From: a virus
Length of the DNA: 36,730 nucleotides
IMG/VR virus record: IMGVR_UViG_3300025301_000043
Span: 1-36,730 of that record
Reading direction: 5' to 3' (one strand)
Positions 3-20,290 of the stretch are shown here, one piece after another. A program made the translations under genes and the position numbers. Below the pieces are notes generated by a model that was given only the letters and a program-made list of their open reading frames with translations, did no database searches and was not told where the DNA came from. Within the stretch, counting starts at the first letter, position 1; every line of letters begins with the position of its first letter.

Positions 3-1310
3 ATGCCACAAGATAAACAGGATATGCTTTCTCCTGTGGAGTTTCTTAATATCGGAATGCAGCTCCAAGATTTGTTTGGTCAAAAACAAGCATACAGCTA
101 TGCCCAACCAGATGTATCTGGTGTTGCACTAGGCGATATGGAGCAACCATCTGAGCCGGGAATATATCCCACACCTAAAAAATCTATCGGTAGTCGTGCT
201 CTTGACTTAGCTGAATTTATTACAGCTCCGGTTACTACTGAAGGATACAATCCAATACGTAGCATGCGGGAGTCTGAGACTGCCCTACAGGGACTTGGGC
301 ATTTACCGGGAGCTTTAATCAGTTTAGGAGCGTCTGGATTTGGTGCGAAGAAACTTGCTGGTGCCACTGGAAGAAAGGCATTAGGTGAGTTGGCAACGAG
401 GGCAATAAGACCTTATCGTTTTTCAACCAAATCAAAAGAAGTGATTAAAGCTATTCGCAATCCATCTTCTCTTAAAACCTTATCCACAAGAAGAGACCAA
501 TGGAGCAAATATCCTCATCATGTAGACGTCAATACCCATCTTGGAAGAATGTTTGCCTATCGCAAAGCTTTTAATCTGAAGCCACCGAAAGAGTCTCTAG
601 ACATGTTTACGAGAGAAGGTAAAAAACAATATTCTCTTAACCTGAGAAATGACAAATCGCGCCAGTTGGGACTGGATATACTGTCAAGAGAGGGTGTGCA
701 GGGAACACATCCAGTATTTGGACACTATACTAGAAGCTTTAAGCCTACAATAGTAAAGGGAAAGCCTACTTTTGAGACTAGCTATAAAGATGTATGGGAT
801 TGGGCTTTTAATAAGGGAGAAATTGCCTCAACCTTCAAAGATATGATGCGTGCTCCAAATCTGTATAAAGACATGGGTAATCCTCTTTCTTTATTTCTTC
901 AAAGAGGTGTGGCAAGTTCTCTCTCAAAGCCAATTACATTTAAGGGGACTATTTCTGGTAAAGATTATATGAATTTACTAGGACTTCCGAAGTCATTGTC
1001 TTCTACGGGAACAACTCAGGCAAGTCTTGCTTTGGAGCGTTATTTAGAACACATAAAACATACATTATTAGATGGTACTGGCATGGTAAAAAAACCATCT
1101 AAGGCGTGGTGGAAATCACATGATAATATGATTGAACGTCTTTTAAAGAATAAACGCTTTCAAATGGAGGCGGAGAGTCAGATTGGTGCGAGGGCAACCA
1201 CTCGCGCAGGCCTCGAAATTGATATGAATCCATTCTTCAGGTATTATGTAAACGCACTTTATGGTCTGCCAAAAGGTACTAAAAATGCAGCAGGACAGGT
1301 TATTAGATAA
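3..1310 (+). CDS. Putative virion-associated protein (435 aa), function unknown
   Basis: I do not recognise a family. The ATG lies inside TAATG, so the stop of an upstream gene (TAA at 1-3) overlaps the start and translation is probably coupled. The N-terminal 90 residues are polar. Residues about 98-116 are small and hydrophobic (LPGALISLGASGFG) and are followed by KK and a basic stretch, a layout shared with the gene at 2353. The rest is basic and rich in aromatic residues, with no Cys cluster or catalytic motif I can name. It is first of four long genes in one polarity, before the convergent early block. By position and by the membrane-active-looking segment it could be an internal or ejected virion protein; this is inference. 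Confidence 0.85.
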   Translation: MPQDKQDMLSPVEFLNIGMQLQDLFGQKQAYSYAQPDVSGVALGDMEQPSEPGIYPTPKKSIGSRALDLAEFITAPVTTEGYNPIRSMRESETALQGLGHLPGALISLGASGFGAKKLAGATGRKALGELATRAIRPYRFSTKSKEVIKAIRNPSSLKTLSTRRDQWSKYPHHVDVNTHLGRMFAYRKAFNLKPPKESLDMFTREGKKQYSLNLRNDKSRQLGLDILSREGVQGTHPVFGHYTRSFKPTIVKGKPTFETSYKDVWDWAFNKGEIASTFKDMMRAPNLYKDMGNPLSLFLQRGVASSLSKPITFKGTISGKDYMNLLGLPKSLSSTGTTQASLALERYLEHIKHTLLDGTGMVKKPSKAWWKSHDNMIERLLKNKRFQMEAESQIGARATTRAGLEIDMNPFFRYYVNALYGLPKGTKNAAGQVIR

Positions 1311-2353
1311 TGCCACAGGGTACCCAACAACAACCTATTGAACTGCCTGCTGTTACAGCTTATGGTGAACAGCCGGAGCGTTCTCTCTTACAGCAACTTG
1401 TAGCCCAATTCATACAGAGGGCGAATGAACCTAAAGACCCTTTTGCAATTCAGCCGTATAATGTAATTGCACGAAATGACCCCGCACTGCTAGAAAGTCT
1501 AAGAGGGTTAGTTCGGTTGCCCGGAGAGGTTAAAAGGCGCATGGGAAAAAGTGTATTTCATTTACCTCATCATCAAGAAGTAATGCAACAAAAACAAAGA
1601 GAAGCAGAGAATGTTTCCAATTGGATGAAGACTTGGTTTCGGAGTCCCATTACAAGAGAGCGTTTAGCAGAAGGTGGTAGGTCGCCACAAGACGTAGAAG
1701 CTCTAGCATCAAAAGCTGAGAATTTGCAATTTGAGATTGGCATGCCTGATATACCTGAAGGCTTACGAAGACTAGGTAGAATACCTAAAGAGCATCTGAC
1801 TCTTGGTGTATATGATGTAGAAGAGGATAAGTCGTATATTAAACCATATACTACAATTGGAGATTTTGGTGGCGAGTATGCTGGCATTCCTTACTTCAGG
1901 TCTAAACCATTTTTTGAGCAAACAGCGGCCCATGAATTAATGCATCAAATGACGATAGATAAAATGACCGATAAGGAAGCGAAGTTGATAAGCGAGGGTG
2001 TTTATGATTACAAAAAAGTGATGGATATGGCGTCCAAGCAAAAGGGTGCGTGGAGGGCTTTTGGGTATAAACATGAACCATACATGAAGGGTGGTCGTGG
2101 GGGTGACCCCGCTACTCTGAAGAATTATTTTTATTATGCTAAACCAGAAGAAATATACGCAAGAATTATGAGTGTTAGAAGGTCGCTTGGTTTGTTGCCG
2201 GGACAGTCGGTTGCTAAAAAAATGCTAGAAACCATTAAGAACTCCCCGGCTATGAATGACCTTCTTAGGTATATGCCAATGAAGCATGTTCAAAAACTTA
2301 TGAATACACTGGCAGTTAAAGAAGAAGATACTCCCACTGAGGTTTTTGTATAA
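1310..2353 (+). CDS. Putative zincin-type metallopeptidase, phage-associated (347 aa)
   Basis: Residues 208-212 read H-E-L-M-H in the context AAHELMHQM, the HExxH zinc-binding and catalytic signature of zincin peptidases. About 70 residues later, at 279-284, comes P-E-E-I-Y-A, a pattern seen after HExxH in phage-encoded zincins, where a Glu would be the third zinc ligand (E280 or E281). The first 200 residues resemble nothing I recognise. The gene starts in a TAATG overlap with its predecessor and ends in another with its successor. A virion peptidase acting on capsid or host proteins during maturation or entry is plausible. Coding status is sure; the peptidase call rests on motif spacing only. 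Confidence 0.8.
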   Translation: MPQGTQQQPIELPAVTAYGEQPERSLLQQLVAQFIQRANEPKDPFAIQPYNVIARNDPALLESLRGLVRLPGEVKRRMGKSVFHLPHHQEVMQQKQREAENVSNWMKTWFRSPITRERLAEGGRSPQDVEALASKAENLQFEIGMPDIPEGLRRLGRIPKEHLTLGVYDVEEDKSYIKPYTTIGDFGGEYAGIPYFRSKPFFEQTAAHELMHQMTIDKMTDKEAKLISEGVYDYKKVMDMASKQKGAWRAFGYKHEPYMKGGRGGDPATLKNYFYYAKPEEIYARIMSVRRSLGLLPGQSVAKKMLETIKNSPAMNDLLRYMPMKHVQKLMNTLAVKEEDTPTEVFV

Positions 2354-3762
2354 TGCCACACGGTTTTCCACATACACAGACTGCTGAAGCTGACCAGACT
2401 GTTGTCAGGCTCGGAGATTTAATGCTTGACATGCCGGAGGATACCACTCCGCAGGAAAAATCTGCATTGTCTTCTTTTCTTATGTCTATGCTGGAGCCTG
2501 CTCCCGGCTTTAATCCCATTCAAGACATTATACAGTCTCCCACACCTGTTAGGGAGGCAATTCGTCAGGCTCCTTTCCTGCCTATGGCTGCCGCTATGGC
2601 AGTAGGTGGCGGTAGTGGTAAGAAGAAGGTTGTTCAGGCTGGTGCTAGGCGTATACAATCTAAGAAAACAGTGGATAAGTTAGTAGAAACGCTAAAAAGA
2701 AATGAAGAAGGGCTTTGGGATGAGTTTAAGATGTCCGGTAGCACCGAGGGCACACTCCATGGCACGGGAATTGTTGGGAAAGGTGATATTAAAAAAACCA
2801 ATTATTCGATACGGTCTGATAGGGCGATGGATGAAATGCGACACCATATTTCAGTTAATAAGCCTGAAGGCATGGCTTCTGTAGACTTTGCAAAGCAAGG
2901 TGATGAAATATTCATTGGCACGCTTGAGTCGTTTGGTACGAAGTTACCGGAGAAGATAACGAAAAGTCAGCGCCATCAGTGGAAGCCCCTGCGTAAGCGT
3001 CATAGCATACAGAGGCAGTCTGCTCTACAGGAATTACTTGGAGCGGTTGCAGAGTATGCCAATAAAGGAGATGTTATTCATCCGGGAAGCCTTACATCAG
3101 ATTCGTTTACAATGATAACCAATGCTTTAAGGAATCCTAATTTAGGATTCATAAGGGGTGGGCTGAAAGAGAAATTTAAAATTGTAACCGCAGAAGACCT
3201 TAAGGCTATGGCTCAAAAGGGAAGCCGACCAGAGGGATGGACTGCGGAAAAAGCACGTGAAATGCTTGAGTATTCAAAGCTTATTGGAACCAGAAGACTC
3301 TCCACGGGAGGTGACCTTGGATATGCCGATGCTTTTGGGGCGGTTGGTAGAAAAAAGAAAGAATTGGGGACTGCAATGATGAGGATATTTGCTCCAAATA
3401 AGGCTTCGTTGGGTGGGATGGAAAAGCTTCTTAAAGACATTCAAGGAGTGCAGAGGCAAGCCTACAAGGTTGCAAGGAGAGCACCAAGCAATATAGATGC
3501 AGATATTAGTGACGAGTTTCTAGCCCAATTAAATAAAAGTAAAAGTGCAATTAAAAAACTTCAGGATGCGTATTGGCATTCTGCCGAACGTGCACATGGC
3601 AAGAGGGGAGCAAGGAAACTAAATGAGGCCCAAAGCAATGATATATGGAATTTCCTAATGGAACACCGTGCGGTTTCAGAGCAGGCAGAGGATTCCATTC
3701 TTGACCTTCTCGATACCAAAAATGTGTTTACCTATAAACCATTCGCTATTATAAAAAAATAA
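2353..3762 (+). CDS. Putative virion-associated protein (469 aa), function unknown
   Basis: No family recognised. The start is a TAATGCCACA overlap identical in its first ten bases to those of the two preceding genes. Residues about 74-89 form a hydrophobic Ala/Gly stretch (FLPMAAAMAVGGG) followed by GKKK, matching the layout at residues 98-116 of the first gene in the window. The middle is strongly basic (many KR pairs) and the C-terminal 120 residues look helical with heptad-like spacing. Length, charge and neighbours suggest a DNA-contacting or ejected virion protein, which is inference from context. Confidence 0.85.
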   Translation: MPHGFPHTQTAEADQTVVRLGDLMLDMPEDTTPQEKSALSSFLMSMLEPAPGFNPIQDIIQSPTPVREAIRQAPFLPMAAAMAVGGGSGKKKVVQAGARRIQSKKTVDKLVETLKRNEEGLWDEFKMSGSTEGTLHGTGIVGKGDIKKTNYSIRSDRAMDEMRHHISVNKPEGMASVDFAKQGDEIFIGTLESFGTKLPEKITKSQRHQWKPLRKRHSIQRQSALQELLGAVAEYANKGDVIHPGSLTSDSFTMITNALRNPNLGFIRGGLKEKFKIVTAEDLKAMAQKGSRPEGWTAEKAREMLEYSKLIGTRRLSTGGDLGYADAFGAVGRKKKELGTAMMRIFAPNKASLGGMEKLLKDIQGVQRQAYKVARRAPSNIDADISDEFLAQLNKSKSAIKKLQDAYWHSAERAHGKRGARKLNEAQSNDIWNFLMEHRAVSEQAEDSILDLLDTKNVFTYKPFAIIKK

Positions 3763-4760
3763 TGCCTAACACTATAGCATATAGAAAAAAAATAACGCCT
3801 AACACTAGCAAAGTACATTCAGCTCTAGATTATCTTATAAAACTCGCTGAAATGGCAACCGAACCACTCTTTGGTGAGCGGGCGCAGAGATATGGTTATG
3901 GGGCAAGGAAAGGTTTTGATGTTGCTGATATTATAGACGTACCATCGCGTGCCGTAAAAGGTGCTGTCGCTCCTATGTTGTCAGTGGCAAGGAAACCCCT
4001 TTCATCTATGGTGGATTTGGCTGACCTTTTACCACAATTAGCTGGAGACCCATATACCTCAGAAACTATTAGTCAGGCATTGGAAAAAGCAGGCGTGACG
4101 AAATCACCAAATATTGTATTTACAGAGGGTGGCTCCTCTCGCTATAGTCCTACTGGAAGCTGGATGTATCCGTTTGCGGATGTTTTAGAGCTGGGCATGG
4201 GGAGACATAGTAAATTAGGTAGAGAACTTCTTGGGAGAAAGAAAGGAGCGGAGCCAGTTACAGTTTTTGAAGAATTATCACACGCAAGGCCGGGCAAGTT
4301 CGGACACGATATTCAATCACTTATGGAAAAAGGTATAGAAAAAGGTGGTATACCGGAGCATCTGTCAAGGCTTTTAGAAGAAACGAGAGCAAAGGGTGTG
4401 TCTGCAAAAAATGTGTTTACGAAAGAGGGAATGGTAGAGGGTCTATTGTCTTTACCAGCGCTCTTAACAACCCTTGCAAGTTATGCTATTCCCCGTCCAG
4501 AGCATCTTAAAGACCCTGCGTCAAGACGTAGTATGCGATGGTATCAAGATGCGAAGAATATGGTACTTAATTATAATGACCCTAGTGGTCAGTATGCTAT
4601 AAACAGGGGTCAAGAAATGCTTGGTCAGACACGCGCACTACGCAAGGGATACTGGGAAAATCCTATAAGTCAGGGTTACATGAGAGCCGCAATGGCACAG
4701 AGTGCTAATCCATTAAACCAGTTAGCAGCATATTTTGGGATACAACCGTTAGGAAGATAA
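3762..4760 (+). CDS. Putative virion-associated protein with a degenerate zincin-like motif (332 aa)
   Basis: Last gene of the four-gene TAATG-linked run. Residues 167-175 read T-V-F-E-E-L-S-H-A, which resembles a zincin HELxH helix with the first His replaced by Glu (E170), and residues 204-210 read LLEETRA, resembling the downstream glutamate-ligand helix of such enzymes. A hydrophobic helix follows at about 224-243. If the similarity is real, the protein is probably an inactive relative of the zincin two genes upstream; it may also be chance. The C-terminus ends in a short polar segment. The gene has no visible Shine-Dalgarno (AT-rich AAAAAATAATG), so coupled reinitiation is likely. Confidence 0.82.
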   Translation: MPNTIAYRKKITPNTSKVHSALDYLIKLAEMATEPLFGERAQRYGYGARKGFDVADIIDVPSRAVKGAVAPMLSVARKPLSSMVDLADLLPQLAGDPYTSETISQALEKAGVTKSPNIVFTEGGSSRYSPTGSWMYPFADVLELGMGRHSKLGRELLGRKKGAEPVTVFEELSHARPGKFGHDIQSLMEKGIEKGGIPEHLSRLLEETRAKGVSAKNVFTKEGMVEGLLSLPALLTTLASYAIPRPEHLKDPASRRSMRWYQDAKNMVLNYNDPSGQYAINRGQEMLGQTRALRKGYWENPISQGYMRAAMAQSANPLNQLAAYFGIQPLGR

Positions 4761-6756: not shown

Positions 6757-6935
6757 TCTGATTCCTCTCTTATGATGTCTATGTTGTAATTGTCACGATA
6801 GTCGTTATCGTAATCATCAAGACTTGGTCTACGTACGGGTAAGATATAGGTTGATTCATCGTCTTTGCAACAGATACAACCCCCTATCCTGCCGGGAATG
6901 GATATGTTGCGTCCACATACACTACATTCATTCAT
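6753..6935 (-). CDS. Zinc-ribbon small protein (60 aa)
   Basis: The chosen ATG (MNECSVCGRN...) has AGGTGA five to six bases upstream; the longer frame to 6965 starts inside helicase coding sequence. C-S-V-C-G near the N-terminus and G-C-I-C-C about 15 residues later form a four-Cys zinc ribbon. The tail is acidic. It overlaps the helicase stop by eight bases. Confidence 0.7.
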   Translation of the reverse strand: MNECSVCGRNISIPGRIGGCICCKDDESTYILPVRRPSLDDYDNDYRDNYNIDIIREESE

Positions 6936-8274
6936 TAAGTTCACCTGCTTTTTTCGCTCTTTCAATGGCTATATCCTGTGTTTCGGTAAGAAGACATCCG
7001 TCTCCGTAAAATCCCATTTCTGCGTATCCAGCTTCGCCGTATCTGTTCTTGTCAACAAGGAGACGAATATCATACTTTCCATATTCACCGTTGGGATGGT
7101 GGTCTCGATAGAGATATTTCCAAGGGTAGTAGACAAAGATTACGGACTCCGCATCAGTTTCAATTGAGCCTGATTCGCTAAGGTGCGACAGCCTTGGTCG
7201 CTTGTCACGTCCACGCTCAACTTCCCTGTTTAATTGTGATAAAAGTATGGCAGAGCAATTTAGAGACTTAGCCATCCATTTATAGTGTTGCATAATCTCC
7301 ACCACTTGCAATCTCTTGTCCTCAATTCCGGGCACGTTTACCATTTGAATATAATCGTCCACTACCACGTCAGGAGCAAACCTATTGACGTGCCTAACCC
7401 CAGACCTTAGGTCTTTAATATCATCGAACATAATAAGATTGCGATATTTGGATGAAATCTTTTCCTTAACAGCCTCTATTGACTGGTTATCGTGCTCAGT
7501 TAATTGCATCATTCTTAGCCTTCGATATGATATATCACCAGCCTCAAGAATAAATATCTTTTTCATCATCTCTACGTTGGTCATTTCTCTATTGAATACA
7601 ATGACCTTCTTGCCGTGGTCTATTAGGTTCTTTACAATGTTTATCATTACAGTGCTCTTACCCATAGACGGTCGACCTGCAATAACTGTTATCTCCCCCC
7701 TTGTCATGCCCCCGGTTATCTTATCAATGACTCCATACCCTGTCTTGATTAGATTTTTTTCATCGTAAATTCTTTCTACTGTCCTATCGAGTAGCTCATC
7801 AAGATTGAACTTTTTTGTTGGTCGGAGATGAAGAGCCTTGGTAACGGTACTGTTAAGGTCTTCCAGCGCTTTGTGGGCATCTGCGTTACTTCCAAATGCT
7901 GCTCTTTGTATCTGGCTTGCCTCAGTCACCACTTTTCTTAATAGCCACTTCTCATAAATAAGCTTTGCATAGCTTAAAGCATTAGCGGTACTGGCTATAT
8001 TGTCAATGAGACCAGATACGAAATAGTTTGATATGTATTTCTTTTGAGTTTCTGGAATATTGTCAATGACAGTGGCGAGGTTTATATCGTTATCATTTGA
8101 CCGCATCGATTGGAGCGTTTTCCAGATAGTTCTGTTATGGGTATTATAAAATACCTCAGGCTCTGGAATGAACTCTGTTACCTTGGAAATATTGTCAGGG
8201 TCAAGTATTAACTGCCCCAACAGGGTTTCTTCTGCCTCTTTATTGTGAGGCATTGTCTGGTCGTCTATAGACAT
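6928..8274 (-). CDS. dnaB: Replicative DNA helicase, DnaB family (448 aa)
   Basis: Hexameric 5'-3' helicase that opens the fork. Residues 9-110 are the DnaB N-terminal domain (PHNKEAEETLLGQLI). The RecA-like domain has Walker A G-R-P-S-M-G-K-S-T at 200-208, the catalytic Glu in FNREM (E230), Walker B V-V-V-D-D-Y at 303-308, and S-Q-L-N-R-E followed by the conserved KRPRLSHLSESGSIETDAE segment at 358-376. Length is normal for the family. AAAAGGAG precedes the ATG by six bases, just downstream of a 12-bp hairpin. No primase or loader was recognised nearby, so these are probably host-supplied or outside the window. Confidence 0.97.
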   Translation of the reverse strand: MSIDDQTMPHNKEAEETLLGQLILDPDNISKVTEFIPEPEVFYNTHNRTIWKTLQSMRSNDNDINLATVIDNIPETQKKYISNYFVSGLIDNIASTANALSYAKLIYEKWLLRKVVTEASQIQRAAFGSNADAHKALEDLNSTVTKALHLRPTKKFNLDELLDRTVERIYDEKNLIKTGYGVIDKITGGMTRGEITVIAGRPSMGKSTVMINIVKNLIDHGKKVIVFNREMTNVEMMKKIFILEAGDISYRRLRMMQLTEHDNQSIEAVKEKISSKYRNLIMFDDIKDLRSGVRHVNRFAPDVVVDDYIQMVNVPGIEDKRLQVVEIMQHYKWMAKSLNCSAILLSQLNREVERGRDKRPRLSHLSESGSIETDAESVIFVYYPWKYLYRDHHPNGEYGKYDIRLLVDKNRYGEAGYAEMGFYGDGCLLTETQDIAIERAKKAGELNE

Positions 8275-9540: not shown

Positions 9541-10275
9541 TTAGTCTCCAAGGAGTTCGGGACGCATTCCGCCACCGCAGGCATTGAAATAACTGCAGTA
9601 TTTCGGATTACATTCCCATCCCTGCATTGGGGCATTTCCCAATTCTACCTCTGGTATGCCATCTTTGAACTGTGATTTGAGGTCGAGCCAGTATTGCTTG
9701 GCTTCATCAACAATAGTTCTCTTATACTCCACCTCGCGCATTTTGGAGGTGTCTTTGTTGTAATATACAAGAGACATACCATCGAGTGTTCCATACTCCT
9801 GCTCAACCCAAATCCCGTATGTTCCAAGTTGCAGGGAATAGTTAGAACCAGCGGTAGGGTCACTGTCACGTCCAAACAGCTTTCGCCATTTGAAACTGTT
9901 ACATGTTTTGATGTCGTAAAGGTGAGAATGGTCTAAGAGAGAGAAATCAAAAAAGCCTCGAACATTAAGTTCCGGCAGTTGAATCTCCCTCTCTATGAGT
10001 ATTCGAGCACCTGTTGAGTCTGCATATTTTCGGAGAGCATCCTGAATGTCACCATGCACAACGTCTCCGAGCCTGAACAGGCGTAGCGTGTCAAAATCCT
10101 TTGGAGCAGGCTTTTCTTTTGCAATGCTCTCAAAGTATATCTTACGCTTACACATTCCAGCGGCACTAGCATGGAACCAGTGTTCCTGACCAGAATAGCG
10201 GTTAAGCTGATTTGCCCTGTTAAGGTCGGCTATGTGTGAGTCATAAATCTCACTTATGTTTGGTCGTTTCGCCAT
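9541..10275 (-). CDS. Cas4/AddB-like PD-(D/E)XK exonuclease with Fe-S cysteines (244 aa)
   Basis: RecB-family nuclease motifs are visible: H74 in GDVVHGDI, D110 in GFFDFSL, D121-I-K123 in LYDIKT, and Q149-L-G-T-Y153. One Cys in AAGMCKRK (C42) and three near the C-terminus (C222, C227, C233) match the split four-Cys 4Fe-4S arrangement of Cas4 and AddB. It would resect DNA ends to provide ssDNA for the Rad52-like protein next door. Such genes occur widely in phages without CRISPR, and no CRISPR array is seen here. The start overlaps the upstream RHH gene by 26 bases. Confidence 0.9.
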   Translation of the reverse strand: MAKRPNISEIYDSHIADLNRANQLNRYSGQEHWFHASAAGMCKRKIYFESIAKEKPAPKDFDTLRLFRLGDVVHGDIQDALRKYADSTGARILIEREIQLPELNVRGFFDFSLLDHSHLYDIKTCNSFKWRKLFGRDSDPTAGSNYSLQLGTYGIWVEQEYGTLDGMSLVYYNKDTSKMREVEYKRTIVDEAKQYWLDLKSQFKDGIPEVELGNAPMQGWECNPKYCSYFNACGGGMRPELLGD

Positions 10276-11874: not shown

Positions 11875-12081
11875 TTAAGTTACGGGAATGTTACAATCCA
11901 TTACTTTATCTTGTTTTTCAACAAAATGTATGTCTGTAGAGTCGAAAAATATGTCCAATAACTGGTTAATTTTATCAACTTTATCATTCATATGAAACTC
12001 AACACAGAACATCTTTGTTGTCAATAAAGACTTTACAATAATGTCTTTTTCTTCCTGTGTAATTTCCTTTGCCATTACCAT
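11875..12081 (-). CDS. Hypothetical small helical protein (68 aa)
   Basis: MVMAKEITQEEKDIIVKSLL... GGAGG is nine bases before the first ATG; the second ATG at 12075 is also possible and gives MAKEITQ. The start overlaps the end of the DnaJ-type zinc protein gene by seven bases. N-terminal helix-turn-helix-like composition, no motif I can name. Confidence 0.62.
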   Translation of the reverse strand: MVMAKEITQEEKDIIVKSLLTTKMFCVEFHMNDKVDKINQLLDIFFDSTDIHFVEKQDKVMDCNIPVT

Positions 12082-12545
12082 ATATCAAATCCTCCGCTAT
12101 TTACACAGAACTCTGCGAACTCAGCTACCTCTTCAACTGATGTGGAATAGTATGTATCAAAGGGTCTGTTCTTTCCCCTTCCATCGCATACGTTACACTT
12201 ACCCTGTACGAACTTATCATCTCTGGTGCCTGTTCCGTCACACCAAGTACAGATTTCATCAGCCATCTCTTCGAGTTGCTTTTGTTCTGCTTTGATTGTA
12301 TTAGCAATTTCACCATTGTCAATGGCTTTCTGCAGGCATTTAGCCATACGTATTGCCTTTGACTTGGCGATTCTATGACCACGATTACCTCCGCCCGATA
12401 TAGCATCTTTAACTGTCAAGATATGAGAACACGTCTCAACAGTCAGACCCCATAACGGTCGCCAACCCCAGACATTCTGGCGAAAGTATGTTCCTACTTT
12501 CCCATCAACATCTACGGGGTCGACTCCATATAGGACGAATCCCAT
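12075..12545 (-). CDS. DnaJ-type zinc-finger protein (156 aa)
   Basis: Near residues 99-125 there are two knuckles C-T-W-C-D-G-T-G and C-N-V-C-D-G-R-G, the CxxCxGxG repeat of the DnaJ central zinc domain. There is no J domain. The N-terminal 60 residues (VLYGVDPVDVDGKVG...WGWRPLWGLT) form a separate unknown domain with aromatic residues, followed by a helical, basic SKAIRMAKCLQKAI segment. Length 156 is shorter than a DnaJ. A zinc-ribbon adaptor role is inferred. AAGGAG precedes the ATG. Confidence 0.75.
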   Translation of the reverse strand: MGFVLYGVDPVDVDGKVGTYFRQNVWGWRPLWGLTVETCSHILTVKDAISGGGNRGHRIAKSKAIRMAKCLQKAIDNGEIANTIKAEQKQLEEMADEICTWCDGTGTRDDKFVQGKCNVCDGRGKNRPFDTYYSTSVEEVAEFAEFCVNSGGFDIW

Positions 12546-13448: not shown

Positions 13449-14444
13449 TTATCTGACAGCTTTTGCAGCATTAATAAAATCATACGAATTTCCACACTTA
13501 AATGCCTCACCTCGAAAACCATACCTTCGCCAGTGTGCCAGTACATCTGTCGACAAACGAGCGTAATCAGGCATATCTTCTTTAGCATCCCAATATTGTT
13601 TTTTATCAGGGTCAAAATGATGAGAGTTAGTCCCATAGTAACACGAGAGACCTTCATCATGCATAAAAGCATATATCTTCATACGTTCAGAAGCCCGCTC
13701 TACAGCCAACTGCCCATCAAAATCACCAAAAAAGATGGCGGTTCGACCTTGCCATCTTTCAGACCAACCATCATACGAAGGGTCTTTTTGAAGTCTATAA
13801 TAATGTGCATCCTCCGTATCGTATGCCTCGTCGGCGGATGAGAAAAAACTCTGCCATTTTCCTTCTCTCCTGTCGTAAAAAACTGTCGGAAACGCATTAG
13901 GTGCTTTAATCAGCTCCACATCACCCCTGTCAACAAGAGAAGACACCATTCTTGCATAGAATCTTGCCATATAACTACAGGATGGACTAGTATCAATGAT
14001 AAATAGTATACTCTCACGCTCTCTCTCCATCCTACAGGATTTTAATGGTACCTTAGAAAGTCTGCGATACATTAATCTATCCATATCCCATTCATCGTCC
14101 CCATCTTGGGGGTACCCTGTTAAATCTTCAGCCACTTTAGAAATGATTAAACTTGCTATAGATGCTATATGTCGTTCCCTGTCACCATCAAGGCTTACCA
14201 CGCTTTCAGCTTTATTATGATTTAACCCTGAACCACCAGCTTGAATACGCATCCTATTCTCATATGTAGCACACGCCTCATCCCATTGAGCCTGTGATGT
14301 CTTCTGTACCACGCACCTTGCTGGCACTTGCTTAAAAGATTTGGCTGGAGTGGGGACAGCAGTAGGCTTCTTATGCGAAGTAGGAGGAGCATCACTACTA
14401 TTACTGTCATCCCACGGTCTCCAGCCTTTAGATATAATCGGCAT
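13449..14444 (-). CDS. VWA-domain protein, partner of MoxR-like ATPase (331 aa)
   Basis: The central domain has a MIDAS motif D-T-S-P-S (D151, S153, S155) after a hydrophobic strand ILFII, and G-D-F-D-G at 240-244 after a strand TAIFF where the later MIDAS acid is expected. This is a von Willebrand A fold that binds a divalent ion and a partner protein. The first 50 residues are Pro/Ser/Lys-rich and probably disordered. The gene follows the MoxR-type ATPase directly, the usual pairing of MoxR ATPases with VWA proteins in bacteria, where they act as chaperone or remodelling complexes. The substrate is unknown. Ribosome binding site is weak. Confidence 0.82.
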   Translation of the reverse strand: MPIISKGWRPWDDSNSSDAPPTSHKKPTAVPTPAKSFKQVPARCVVQKTSQAQWDEACATYENRMRIQAGGSGLNHNKAESVVSLDGDRERHIASIASLIISKVAEDLTGYPQDGDDEWDMDRLMYRRLSKVPLKSCRMERERESILFIIDTSPSCSYMARFYARMVSSLVDRGDVELIKAPNAFPTVFYDRREGKWQSFFSSADEAYDTEDAHYYRLQKDPSYDGWSERWQGRTAIFFGDFDGQLAVERASERMKIYAFMHDEGLSCYYGTNSHHFDPDKKQYWDAKEDMPDYARLSTDVLAHWRRYGFRGEAFKCGNSYDFINAAKAVR

Positions 14445-14448
14445 CTAA

Positions 14449-16050
14449 CTAATTATCACCGTTCTGGATGGTAATGTTACGAGGACGCCATCCCAAATGT
14501 ATATGCTTTCTGTACACCCATCCATAACGTCTTTTATACTCAATCTCATCTGCTTTTTTCCAATGACATGCCTTGTCAATCTTACTCATACCTGCTAACA
14601 TCCATCCATTGCTAGTCCCCTCCGCAGAAGAATACTTATCTGCTCCAACGAATGCGTAAAATGCACTCTGATGTTTCAAGTTGACAATGACTTCAAGCTT
14701 TCCCATTCCACCGCTTACACCTTTGGTTCGTGTCCATCTCATATGTAAGCGATTACGGACTCTTCCGATGATTTCGGAACGTGAAAACTTAGTGATTTCC
14801 AGAGACATGGATTCCTGCAAAGCTTTAACTATCATCCAGTGCACGCCATCTTCTACAAAACATATCTCACCATCATGTTGCCACAGGCGTTGCAATCTAT
14901 ATGCCTCACGAAGGGGAATGGGTTTACGAATAAGCAGGTACTTTTTACTGACGAGTGTAAACTTGTCAAGGGATGCTGCCCGAGACATTGGAACATCTGC
15001 AAGGTCGTGCACAAATGCGTCATACGACTTCTTGCTGTACTTTATGAGGCCAAATATTTTATTTCCCTGAGATTCAATGTTGTCAGGAGCTTGGTGCATA
15101 ACAAATTGCTTTTGCATACCCCTTATCTTTGGTAATGCTGGCAACGCTACAGATGCCGTGTCAGACTCTGGGACAGACGCATCTTCTGACGAATACTTGT
15201 CTGCGCTCAAAGAAGATACACCACTTCCTCGCCAGACCTCAGGTAATCTGTCCTCTTCGTGTTCTTTCAGTATCTGATGATTCTCTGGCGTTTTCGTGAT
15301 ATACTCATATACCAGAGTATTCCAGTCCGCATCCTTACCGAGGACTTTGATGGCATCAAGCAACTGCCTCATTTCCTGTATTGTTACTGGCTTTTTGATA
15401 CCACTGACAACGCATCGCTTATACAGGGTAACAACCGCCTCAACCATAGCATTGTCTGGATGGGACATCTCTAATGCGTCCTTAACCAGCTCAGGATGGG
15501 GCATACTAAAGTTAATCATTGGTAATCGCCTGAGTAATGGCTCTGACAAATGCCTCTCGTCATTCATTGTTATGAACACGATTAAGTTGTCCAGATTAGC
15601 CCTGACCTCTACATTGGGAAAGGATATTCTCCCTGTTTGTAAGAAGTCAAGCAGAAAAGCGTCAGCACTATGCCGTGATTTGTCCCATTCGTCAAGGACA
15701 AGCATAGCCTTACGCCCCTCTGATGTTATCTTCGCAACTTCTACGAGTTTACCATCATACAGTGATATACCACTAATGGTAGACTCATTCGGTAGCATCT
15801 TCTGAACAAGGTCATCTTCCCGTGTTCCCGGACATATCTGATAGAAGCAGTACTCCATATCAAGTATGTTATTAAGGACTTCGGGCAGATAGGTCTTGCC
15901 TGAACCTGCCGAGCCAAAAAGAAATGCACCACCGACAGGCTTCTGGTGCAACGCAGAATATATCTGGGCTGCCAGCTCCTCTCGGTGAATGTATCCTTCT
16001 CCCTTAAGGCGACTGCTCAATGATTTAAGCGATAAGTGATTATTCGCCAT
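14449..16050 (-). CDS. MoxR-like AAA+ ATPase (533 aa)
   Basis: Residues 46-53 are Walker A G-S-A-G-S-G-K-T; Walker B is L-V-L-D-E (D120, E121); sensor-1 is T-M-N-D (N163); an arginine pair R174-R175 after E-P-L-L suits the Arg finger. These match the MoxR/AAA_5 group. The C-terminal half (290-533) has no family I recognise, and contains ADKYSS twice, near residues 290 and 480. The ATG at 16050 lies six bases after AGGAG and is preferred to the GTG at 16053. With the VWA gene it forms a pair that may remodel host or phage complexes using ATP. Confidence 0.88.
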   Translation of the reverse strand: MANNHLSLKSLSSRLKGEGYIHREELAAQIYSALHQKPVGGAFLFGSAGSGKTYLPEVLNNILDMEYCFYQICPGTREDDLVQKMLPNESTISGISLYDGKLVEVAKITSEGRKAMLVLDEWDKSRHSADAFLLDFLQTGRISFPNVEVRANLDNLIVFITMNDERHLSEPLLRRLPMINFSMPHPELVKDALEMSHPDNAMVEAVVTLYKRCVVSGIKKPVTIQEMRQLLDAIKVLGKDADWNTLVYEYITKTPENHQILKEHEEDRLPEVWRGSGVSSLSADKYSSEDASVPESDTASVALPALPKIRGMQKQFVMHQAPDNIESQGNKIFGLIKYSKKSYDAFVHDLADVPMSRAASLDKFTLVSKKYLLIRKPIPLREAYRLQRLWQHDGEICFVEDGVHWMIVKALQESMSLEITKFSRSEIIGRVRNRLHMRWTRTKGVSGGMGKLEVIVNLKHQSAFYAFVGADKYSSAEGTSNGWMLAGMSKIDKACHWKKADEIEYKRRYGWVYRKHIHLGWRPRNITIQNGDN

Positions 16051-16053
16051 CAC

Positions 16054-16288: not shown

Positions 16289-16354
16289 GGGGCTGACAAC
16301 ACATTACACTGTAATCGTGGGTAATCAGCAAGGTAGGGTGATGCTGCCAGCCCC
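16289..16354 (-). other. Structured RNA element after the gene at 16362
   Basis: On the minus-strand RNA, GGGGCTGGCAGCAT (16354-16341) pairs with GTGTTGTCAGCCCC (16302-16289) over 14 positions including G-U pairs, enclosing an internal hairpin ATTAC-AGT-GTAAT. It is followed by AAAAATTTT. The G-U pairs indicate the leftward RNA as the folded form. It lies eight bases past the stop of the upstream gene. It is not a tRNA (no T-arm or anticodon arm pattern). Confidence 0.6.
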
Positions 16355-16361
16355 TGTTCAT

Positions 16362-16880
16362 TCAATCATATTCCCTATCATCCGAGTCGTCATCCATTGA
16401 ATCAAGTATCTGTTTCAGGACGTGCTTTGGCAGGCCGGAAAGTGCCATCTGAAGAATTTCATCCTTCTCCAGATGTCCCTTGACCGGTTCAACACCTCTG
16501 GCAAGTTTCTCCACCTGCATAGTATTGTTCAGTTCAGAGGCATCCTTGCCTGTGCTTTTTTCTACATACGTCTGATAACGGACTTTGATATTGAAAGCAA
16601 CAGCCAGAACCGCCATCAACCTATTGGCAAGCTGTGACACTTCTTCACATTCTTCCTCGGTGTCGGCATCATGCATCAACATTCCAAGTGCGTCTTCCAT
16701 ATTAATTTCCATAATACAGTCAGACAGCTCAAGAATGTAAGTAATGGCGTGCAGTGGTTCGTCATTGAACACATCACGCATCACTTCGCTTGCAGCATGG
16801 TGGCTTTGCTTCAGAATCTCACGCCCGCCCTCAGTGACGAGTCCGCCATCCGGAACGTCAAGTGGGGGTTTCGATTTCAT
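16362..16880 (-). CDS. Hypothetical acidic helical protein (172 aa)
   Basis: No family recognised. The centre is a strongly acidic helical stretch (MEINMEDALGMLMHDADTEEECEE) followed by a hydrophobic helix LANRLMAVLAVAFNIKV, and the C-terminus ends D-D-D-S-D-D-R-E-Y-D. GAGGAG lies seven to eight bases before the ATG. It is the nearest gene upstream of the ATPase/VWA pair on the same strand, separated by a structured RNA element, and could be a client or regulator of that pair, which is inference from order only. Confidence 0.75.
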   Translation of the reverse strand: MKSKPPLDVPDGGLVTEGGREILKQSHHAASEVMRDVFNDEPLHAITYILELSDCIMEINMEDALGMLMHDADTEEECEEVSQLANRLMAVLAVAFNIKVRYQTYVEKSTGKDASELNNTMQVEKLARGVEPVKGHLEKDEILQMALSGLPKHVLKQILDSMDDDSDDREYD

Positions 16881-18504: not shown

Positions 18505-18522
18505 GATTACGTCAGGCAGAGT

Positions 18523-18984
18523 CTATTCTGTTACCTTCTCTACAGGAACCCATTTTTCCCCAGACCACTTTTTACCATGTCTGGTTATACCTAAGTCCCA
18601 AGTACCGTCATCCATCTCCCAGATTCCCGTCTGGAGAGCACCTGATGCAGATTTGACCTGTTTTACCCCATCAGACTTGAGGGAGTCAATAAACGCCTGT
18701 CTGGCGTTAGTTAGGGCAACATCAACAGGTTTTGTTGTTCTGGTACCTTTGGTTTTGTACTGAGTATCAATTGACTCAGATACCTTAGCTCTGAAACTGT
18801 CAACAGCTTCGAAGTCATTAGGGTCAAGTAGACCAGAGTCGATAGCGACCCCGACTTGAAGGTCGACTGTTGTCATTTTGTCGTCGACCGACAATGCCGT
18901 TGCCTTAACAGCTCCGACCACTAAGGCAGAACAGGTTAACAGTAACTGCAGAGAATTGTTCTCTGTTAGGAATTCAATAATCAT
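18523..18984 (-). CDS. Membrane-anchored or exported hypothetical protein (153 aa)
   Basis: Start chosen at 18984 (MIIEFLTENNSLQ...), which has GAGG 8-11 bases upstream; the frame to 19050 would need a TTG and runs through an inverted repeat. Residues about 10-31 (NSLQLLLTCSALVVGAVKATAL) form a hydrophobic segment, either a signal peptide or a membrane anchor. The rest is polar, and the C-terminus (TGIWEMDDGTWDLGITRHGKKWSGEKW) is Trp/Gly-rich. It is the first gene left of the divergent control region and could be an early host-envelope or superinfection protein. Function unknown. Confidence 0.72.
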   Translation of the reverse strand: MIIEFLTENNSLQLLLTCSALVVGAVKATALSVDDKMTTVDLQVGVAIDSGLLDPNDFEAVDSFRAKVSESIDTQYKTKGTRTTKPVDVALTNARQAFIDSLKSDGVKQVKSASGALQTGIWEMDDGTWDLGITRHGKKWSGEKWVPVEKVTE

Positions 18985-19253: not shown

Positions 19254-19461
19254 CCTGCCAATTTGTCATAAATTTGGGCTTAATGCTTTCCAACGTAAAT
19301 GGCGACGGGAGCGAAAACCCGAGCGGGGGGGTCGACGGGGGGAAGAGAGACACACACATAGTGACCCTATTTTTTTGATTTCAAGTGTACTTTTCGGTTT
19401 TTCAACCTTTTTTGCTTACAAGGCCTAAATTTGCACAGAAAATCGCTTTTTTGCAAGGCCC

Positions 19462-19581
19462 CTATATAGTATATATATATATATATAGTATATGTAGTAG
19501 ATAATAGATGTTAATAGATAATAGATAATAGTAGATAATAAATAAATAATAATAATAGATAAGTATAGATAGTAGATATAG
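19462..19581. repeat. AT-rich tract with TAGATAATA repeats, candidate melting region
   Basis: Starts with alternating TA over about 25 bases, then repeats of TAGATAATA/AATAATAGATA. GC content is about 15 percent here, against roughly 40 percent overall. It lies 200 bp from the iterons and 60 bp before the methyltransferase promoter. Compatible with a DNA unwinding element. Confidence 0.6.
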
Positions 19582-19614
19582 GAACGGAGCTTTTTTCCTT
19601 GTCTAGCTCTTGCC

Positions 19615-19643
19615 TTGTTTCCTATTCCACGCTTTCGTATATT
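19615..19643 (+). promoter_or_regulatory. Promoter of the methyltransferase gene, leaderless arrangement
   Basis: TTGTTT (19615-19620), 17 bp, TATATT (19638-19643). The ATG starts six bases after the last -10 base, so transcription should begin at or within a base or two of the ATG. No Shine-Dalgarno precedes the gene except AGGG, which lies inside the promoter. Confidence 0.55.
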
Positions 19644-19648
19644 AGGGC

Positions 19649-20290
19649 ATGGTAATACACGGCGATTGCTTGGAAGAGCTTGCAAGGATGGAAGAGGATT
19701 CGGTTGACTTGGTGGTCACTGACCCTCCCTACAACATCGGTAAGGACTACGGAAACGACTCAGACCGCCAAGGTGAGGAAGAATACGTAGAGTGGCTTAC
19801 CAAGGTAGGAACAGAGGTGATGAGGGTAGCAAAGCCTACGGCTTGGGTATTGGTGTTTAACGGGGTAGATAGGATAAAAACTACGATTGAGGCGTTTGGT
19901 GAGGAAAACCACGTCTGGGTATCGTGCTGGTATGCCCCTAATAAGCGTTCTAAGAGCCTCTACGGCTACAATCTGTGGCAACCCCTTATCATGTTTCGAG
20001 GTGAGGGTAGAAAGTGGCTTAAATTGCGAGATTTCTATTCCTTCACTACCGGGCAAGAGAAGTATGGGCACCCTACTCCTAAACCTCAAAAGCTAATTGA
20101 AAAGCTAATAGTGGACTTTTCGGAAGAAGGAGACCTCGTGCTAGACCCTTTCCTAGGCTCGGGTACTACTTCGGCTGCATCTGAGTTACTTGATAGGAGA
20201 CATGTGGGTATTGAGTGTAATCAGGAATATGTAGAGATAGCTCGCTCTAGGCTTGAAATGGTCAAATCTCAAATAAAATTACCATTTTGA
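19649..20290 (+). CDS. DNA (cytosine-N4 or adenine-N6) methyltransferase (213 aa)
   Basis: D-P-P-Y at residues 25-28 (catalytic motif IV), H-P-T-P-K-P at 141-146 and D-P-F-L-G-S-G-T-T at 166-174 (AdoMet-binding motif I) give the order IV...I typical of beta-class amino-methyltransferases. It methylates bases in specific DNA sequences; no restriction enzyme is beside it, so protection from host restriction or regulatory marking is likely. It is the first gene right of the control region. The arrangement of promoter and ATG implies a leaderless message. Confidence 0.93.
   Translation: MVIHGDCLEELARMEEDSVDLVVTDPPYNIGKDYGNDSDRQGEEEYVEWLTKVGTEVMRVAKPTAWVLVFNGVDRIKTTIEAFGEENHVWVSCWYAPNKRSKSLYGYNLWQPLIMFRGEGRKWLKLRDFYSFTTGQEKYGHPTPKPQKLIEKLIVDFSEEGDLVLDPFLGSGTTSAASELLDRRHVGIECNQEYVEIARSRLEMVKSQIKLPF

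Follow-up and report, generated by a model that had tools for sequence, protein, structure and literature searches.

Two adjacent genes of an uncultured phage encode what is very probably a remodelling chaperone of the NorQ/NorD kind, composed of a MoxR-type AAA+ ATPase and a VWA-domain protein and built with a finger-in-pore geometry. In NorQ/NorD itself, a MoxR AAA+ protein and a VWA protein make up the chaperone responsible for iron insertion into nitric oxide reductase. The best fold matches of the two phage proteins were the two halves of one solved complex, NorQ and the VWA domain of NorD, which supports this reading. The pair was present throughout much of a group of related phages and was always found side by side where the sequence allowed it to be seen.

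The window, i.e. the whole stretch of 36,730 bases analysed here, is an IMG/VR virus record of an uncultured phage, probably of marine origin as read from sample numbers and phage types. A second contig, IMGVR_UViG_3300025296_000021 (49,958 bases), covers the window at approximately 99.9% identity with the order rotated. About 96 bases of the window (18518-18613) recur at both ends of that contig, which is therefore probably close to the full genome; a search within it for an exact end repeat found none. The terminase, portal and capsid genes are located on the plus strand in the 23-29 kb part of the window. On the minus strand, facing the structural genes, the pair shares one early-type cluster with the genes for DnaB and a Cas4/PDDEXK-type exonuclease. 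Between the minus-strand early and the plus-strand late genes lies a very AT-rich, low-complexity stretch (19425-19685), a possible origin or promoter region, and a gene for an N6/N4 DNA methyltransferase (Pfam PF01555, 1e-37) is found at 19649-20290 (+). Four long adjoining ORFs of 332-469 aa at 3-4760 (+) had no Pfam match and were, among the compared records, common only to the near-identical contig; their products are possibly tail or receptor-binding proteins. The features of the pair and its cluster are given in Table 1.

Table 1. Positions in the window of the ATPase and VWA genes, their motifs and two further genes of the same cluster.
Feature	Position	Strand	Remarks
MoxR-type AAA+ ATPase, 533 aa from ATG	14449..16050	-	Pfam AAA_5 1.6e-10; fold NorQ/CbbQ2
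Walker A, GSAGSGKT, residues 46-53	15892..15915	-	G46, G49, G51, K52 invariant, 25 relatives
Helix-2 insert region, residues 80-106	15733..15813	-	P87, G94 invariant; T91 23/25
Walker B, MLVLDEWDKS, residues 116-125 (LVLDEWDK = 117-124)	15676..15705	-	DEWDK invariant 25/25
Sensor 1 N163, post-sensor-1 loop, R174/R175	15517..15576	-	N163, R166, R174, R175 invariant, 25 relatives
Sensor-2 region, residues 219-234	15349..15396	-	Q225, E226 invariant; R228 21/25
ATPase C-terminal region, residues 264-533	14452..15261	-	alpha/beta domain modelled at ~334-468
VWA-domain partner (predicted fold), 331 aa	13449..14444	-	NorD VWA fold match; adjoins ATPase gene
MIDAS loop 1, DTSPSC, residues 151-156	13977..13994	-	D151, S153, S155, C156 invariant 22/22
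MIDAS loop 3, FGDFDG, residues 239-244	13713..13730	-	F239, D241, D243 invariant 22/22
Pre-core segment, residues 109-145 (TGYPQDGDDEWDMDRLMYR...C)	14010..14120	-	G115, R127, C137 invariant; candidate NorD-finger counterpart
C-terminal tail, residues 322-331, hydrophobic with K/R end	13452..13481	-	putative ATPase dock
DnaB	6928-8274	-	pattern confirmed with Pfam DnaB_C across compared records
Cas4/PDDEXK-type exonuclease	9541-10275	-	

The larger of the two genes encodes a MoxR-type AAA+ ATPase, putatively hexameric and active. Translation was taken to start at the ATG at 16050, with AGGAG upstream, although it could also begin at the GTG at 16053. Relatives were gathered from viral contigs, first via the terminase and later via ATPase profiles; the profiles were made from these relatives, and one template-free AlphaFold model was produced for each protein. 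The features by which MoxR proteins are recognised, Walker A, Walker B, sensor 1 and the arginine finger, showed little or no variation among 25 relatives, and the intact Walker A/B and sensor 1 of an earlier sequence-only reading were thereby confirmed. The model was confident over residues 10-265, a part that includes a helix-2 insert hairpin formed by strands 83-87 and 95-99. Such a hairpin is a hallmark of the MoxR clade. The NorQ motif GRxLL/IxxxxT was matched only loosely in this insert. The best PDB matches of the model in Foldseek were NorQ and then CbbQ2 (AfCbbQ2), with E-values of 5e-14 to 1e-13. In the C-terminal region the pLDDT was mostly 70-85 over residues 334-468 and below 50 over most of the remainder. 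The length of this part varies, from 270 residues here to more than 400 in most relatives, and it is absent from the L124-type ATPases described below. The two ADKYSS copies that had been pointed out in this region are genuine, only 18 of 20,000 shuffles having produced a repeated 6-mer. The second copy shows no conservation, however, and the repeat was rejected as a functional motif.

The product of the smaller gene has a VWA fold according to its model. NorD VWA chains occupied ranks 1-3 when this model was compared with the PDB by Foldseek (E 2.6e-5, 3.2e-4 and 1.3e-3; probability 0.99 for the top match), in agreement with the VWA domain proposed earlier. The TM-scores of these matches were low (0.25-0.37), and the VWA call consequently rests on rank, E-value, motifs and context combined. 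Confidence in the model is modest (mean pLDDT 67) and its first 49 residues are disordered; strands and helices alternate in it, the DxSxS motif follows the first core strand and D241 follows a later strand. No model in Pfam, PHROGs or NCBIfam recognised the protein; across 22 members of the family VWA_CoxE scored best, with E 0.09. The residues invariant in the 22 relatives include D151, S153 and S155, the MIDAS residues named in the sequence-only reading, as well as C156, P182, N183, R234, F239, D241 and D243. In the family as a whole (22 sequences) the DxSxS and the loop-3 D of the MIDAS are thus invariant, and the loop-2 threonine is not conserved, which differs from NorD. The C-terminus carries [VLIM][KR] as its final residues or one residue short of the final position in 22/22 sequences.

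The two ORFs were found, as first described, on the same minus strand, 4 nt apart and with the VWA gene downstream. In the main family the VWA gene adjoined the ATPase gene on the same strand in 38/38 contigs with sequence past the ATPase gene, a count made up of the window and 28 contigs with nine added later, some of them near-duplicates. Among the window and the 28 other contigs, the VWA gene often overlapped the ATPase gene. Thirteen further ATPase loci had no VWA match, and these contigs all end at, or within approximately 150 bases of, the end of the ATPase gene. Conversely, seven terminase relatives of 15-57 kb had neither gene. The absence is informative in G004, G006, G007 and G008, in which the exonuclease region is included, and carries less weight in G002, which is truncated, and in G005 and G009, which are short. 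No AAA_5 protein whatsoever was present in the four informative records, which the terminase tree places in a single clade and which keep homologous terminase, portal and capsid genes. Co-occurrence, which had been suggested as a check on the pairing, therefore holds in both directions: the genes are adjacent in every relative with room for them, and the clade without one lacks both. The portal and capsid trees arranged the records differently from the terminase tree, and the phages of this group thus probably recombine. In 50,697 phage records neither protein had a tblastn match at E 0.01, and no counterpart was found in bacterial and archaeal genome contigs by a pattern search reaching only fairly close relatives.

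In two further phage lineages a related ATPase is accompanied by a VWA protein of different build. In contigs L124-L131 a 276-residue ATPase with LLDEWDKS, matching the window ATPase family at 1.5e-20 by profile, is followed by a VWA-type protein with DVSGSM and AADHDGE, which aligns weakly to the window VWA profile (0.014). In L226 the gene after that of the ATPase encodes a protein whose motifs DLSGSC and LFFGDWDG closely resemble DTSPSC and IFFGDFDG in the window. This partner reached 9.8e-5 against the window VWA family in a profile comparison and was the top non-family match against a background of 771 proteins, with a non-significant HMM score (E 0.067). It is very improbable that only the ATPase is genuine and that the neighbour is no VWA protein and the pairing incidental. 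Such a view could draw on the failure of every sequence library to recognise the neighbour and on its modest structural model, but the NorD fold match, the invariant MIDAS residues, the strict adjacency and the VWA-type partners beside related ATPases in these two lineages argue against it.

A conserved protein of 150-220 aa with a CxxCxGxG-like cysteine motif and a weak match to the DnaJ central domain lies 3′ of the pair in most relatives, at 12075-12545 (-) in the window. Several relatives encode, two genes after the VWA gene, proteins such as that at 10488-11282 in L085, which from their sequence we take to be ParB-like. The pair also occurs at 5893-9434 of L208, a 109-kb contig whose IMG number (2830247124) is of a different form and which may be an isolate genome able to supply a link to a host; its VWA protein has a long, acidic and repeat-rich N-terminus.

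No conserved third gene that would point to a client was found. The acidic ORF at 16362-16880 (pI 4.5) and the structured RNA that had been noted ahead of the pair both exist, but neither belongs to the conserved module, since both are confined to the window phage and its near-identical contig. The three-gene order put forward for checking was not supported, as no relative of the acidic gene or of the RNA occurred near the pair in other phages. Alignments of the acidic protein to the relatives' neighbours were near those of shuffled sequences (z about 3), and it was rejected as a third component. The hairpin RNA gave z = -3.6 and -4.3; the strong hairpin (GGGGCUGGCAGC...UUGUCAGCCCC, z -4.3) at 16289-16354 (-) separates the acidic gene from that of the ATPase, has no T run directly after it and had no Rfam match. 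Rfam returned nothing above threshold, and a 14-bit match to sR5 was considered due to chance. For the upstream RNA only short chance matches were seen outside the window phage, and it was discarded as a conserved element.

The manner in which the two proteins may work together is suggested by the cryo-EM structure of NorQD, in which a finger of the VWA protein sits in the ring pore and contacts the helix-2 inserts, the last residues of NorD dock on the post-sensor-1 loop, and the finger is required for client remodelling (PMC13036017). The two predicted folds together with the observed motifs and gene adjacency make up the established part of the explanation, and complex formation, geometry and ATP-driven twisting are proposed by analogy. 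The ATPase would form a hexameric ring with the VWA protein on its concave face. VWA residues ~109-145, a conserved segment directly ahead of the MIDAS strand and proposed as the counterpart of the NorD finger from their position relative to the MIDAS and to NorD residues 403-448, would enter the pore and meet the helix-2 inserts. The conserved last residues of the VWA protein would dock on the post-sensor-1 loop, as proposed from the example of NorD. ATP turnover would twist the VWA domain and so pull on a client, which would be gripped by the VWA protein, through its MIDAS face or its N-terminal region, and possibly also by the variable C-terminal domain of the ATPase.

NorQ and NorD are the closest solved folds for the two phage proteins and share with them the helix-2 insert and the conserved short VWA C-tail. 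The identity is approximately 10-17%, however, the phage ATPase has an extra C-terminal domain, and the phage VWA protein is only 331 aa long compared with 638 aa for Paracoccus NorD. CbbQ/CbbO is a Rubisco activase, and AfCbbQ2 ranks second among the fold matches of the ATPase. RavA/ViaA is another MoxR-VWA partnership and resembles the phage pair in the C-terminal extension on its ATPase, but no similarity of the phage ATPase to RavA was found by BLASTP. The gene arrangement of Thermus phage P23-45 resembles that of the window: gp51 is annotated as an ATPase and gp50 as a VWA protein, in the same strand and order, in a block with DnaB and a RecB-type exonuclease opposite the terminase genes. 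The P23-45 ATPase has only 270 aa, and the VWA protein beside it has 563 aa. Comparison of the VWA profile with CobT, ViaA and P23-45 gp50 gave no significant sequence match. A MoxR pair is also known in Bacillus phage 0305phi8-36 (PMC2147016).

Viral CobS/CobT, found in cyanophages, halovirus HHTV-2 and Roseobacter phage CRP-810, likewise consists of a MoxR-type ATPase and a VWA gene in tailed phages. Clusters of cobST are widespread in tailed viruses and were proposed to use the CobN of the host (PMC8651126), and the annotated CobS-CobT pair of CRP-810 has the gene order seen here. The window pair might accordingly complete a host cobaltochelatase with host CobN and boost the cobalamin supply, and the CobS-type family PHROG 249 does weakly match the ATPase (1.4e-5). 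We consider this quite unlikely, as the partner lacks any CobT-family match: CobT_C was not matched by it, while the CRP-810 CobT gave 1.9e-39 as positive control, and TIGR01651 CobT was reached by 1 of the 22 VWA members at E 0.1. The best folds, NorQ/NorD and CbbQ, also count against CobS/CobT. CobN was encoded in none of 15 records, which is not decisive because viral cobST also occurs without CobN and a host CobN could serve.

A viral MoxR ATPase has been shown by experiment to bind a VWA protein in Acidianus two-tailed virus, where p892 (VWA) binds p618 (MoxR) strongly and stimulates its ATPase activity (PMC4124505). That virus is an archaeal spindle-shaped one and its pair is connected with extracellular tail development. 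A comparable role of the phage pair as a virion-assembly chaperone remodelling tail proteins is improbable, because the pair is grouped with the exonuclease and DnaB genes, whereas the terminase, portal and capsid genes occupy the other strand, and neither gene is present in the clade whose terminase, portal and capsid genes are homologous. The phage assembly machine suggested as substrate in the sequence-only reading is for the same reason less favoured, the pair being located among replication and recombination genes and not among structural ones.

Comparison of 16 records showed that, besides the two pair genes, DnaB was the only gene cluster present in 11/11 pair-bearing and 0/5 other records. 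That the pair serves to remodel the replisome or to load the helicase, with the DnaB of the phage itself as target, is unlikely; still less likely is the particular form in which the pair does the job of a helicase loader by loading or remodelling DnaB or its recombination partners. DnaB, ATPase and VWA genes were jointly present in 11 records and jointly absent in 4, and DnaB is also carried by the L124 lineage and by P23-45. The four lacking records, however, are one clade in the terminase tree and represent one event, so that the co-occurrence was rejected as independent evidence and the DnaB link is only a lead. DnaB is moreover common in phages, and G022, CRP-810 and HHTV-2 have MoxR-VWA-type genes without a DnaB match.

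A device for counter-defence or conflict, with the pair remodelling a host immune complex or being related to MoxR-vWA ternary conflict systems, was also considered; bacterial conflict systems with MoxR-vWA modules have been described (PMC7159879). A neighbourhood of small early genes, of the kind typical for host take-over, would fit. This explanation is nevertheless unlikely, given that a third component such as a beta-propeller is not conserved beside the pair and that the pair is kept in phages of a diverse group, whereas rapid turnover is usual for anti-defence genes.

For the NorQ/NorD-like machine, a phage replication or recombination complex is tentatively favoured as the client because of the gene location. 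A host metalloenzyme or cofactor enzyme is a possible client, defence-related targets are unlikely ones, and a virion part or something else altogether would each be an improbable choice.

Viral MoxR-VWA pairs were already known, and that of the window is a divergent form. What is new is a VWA family absent from the profile libraries, found only via its ATPase neighbour and its fold, together with the strict linkage of the two genes and the way they are distributed among these phages. A dedicated MoxR-VWA machine is thus maintained by a group of phages that are uncultured. The parts likely to face the client, the VWA N-terminus and the ATPase C-terminus, vary around a fixed ring-VWA core, and the pair would therefore, if its client is found, offer a small model for client choice by such machines. 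To label phage MoxR-VWA pairs as cobaltochelatase by default is unwarranted.
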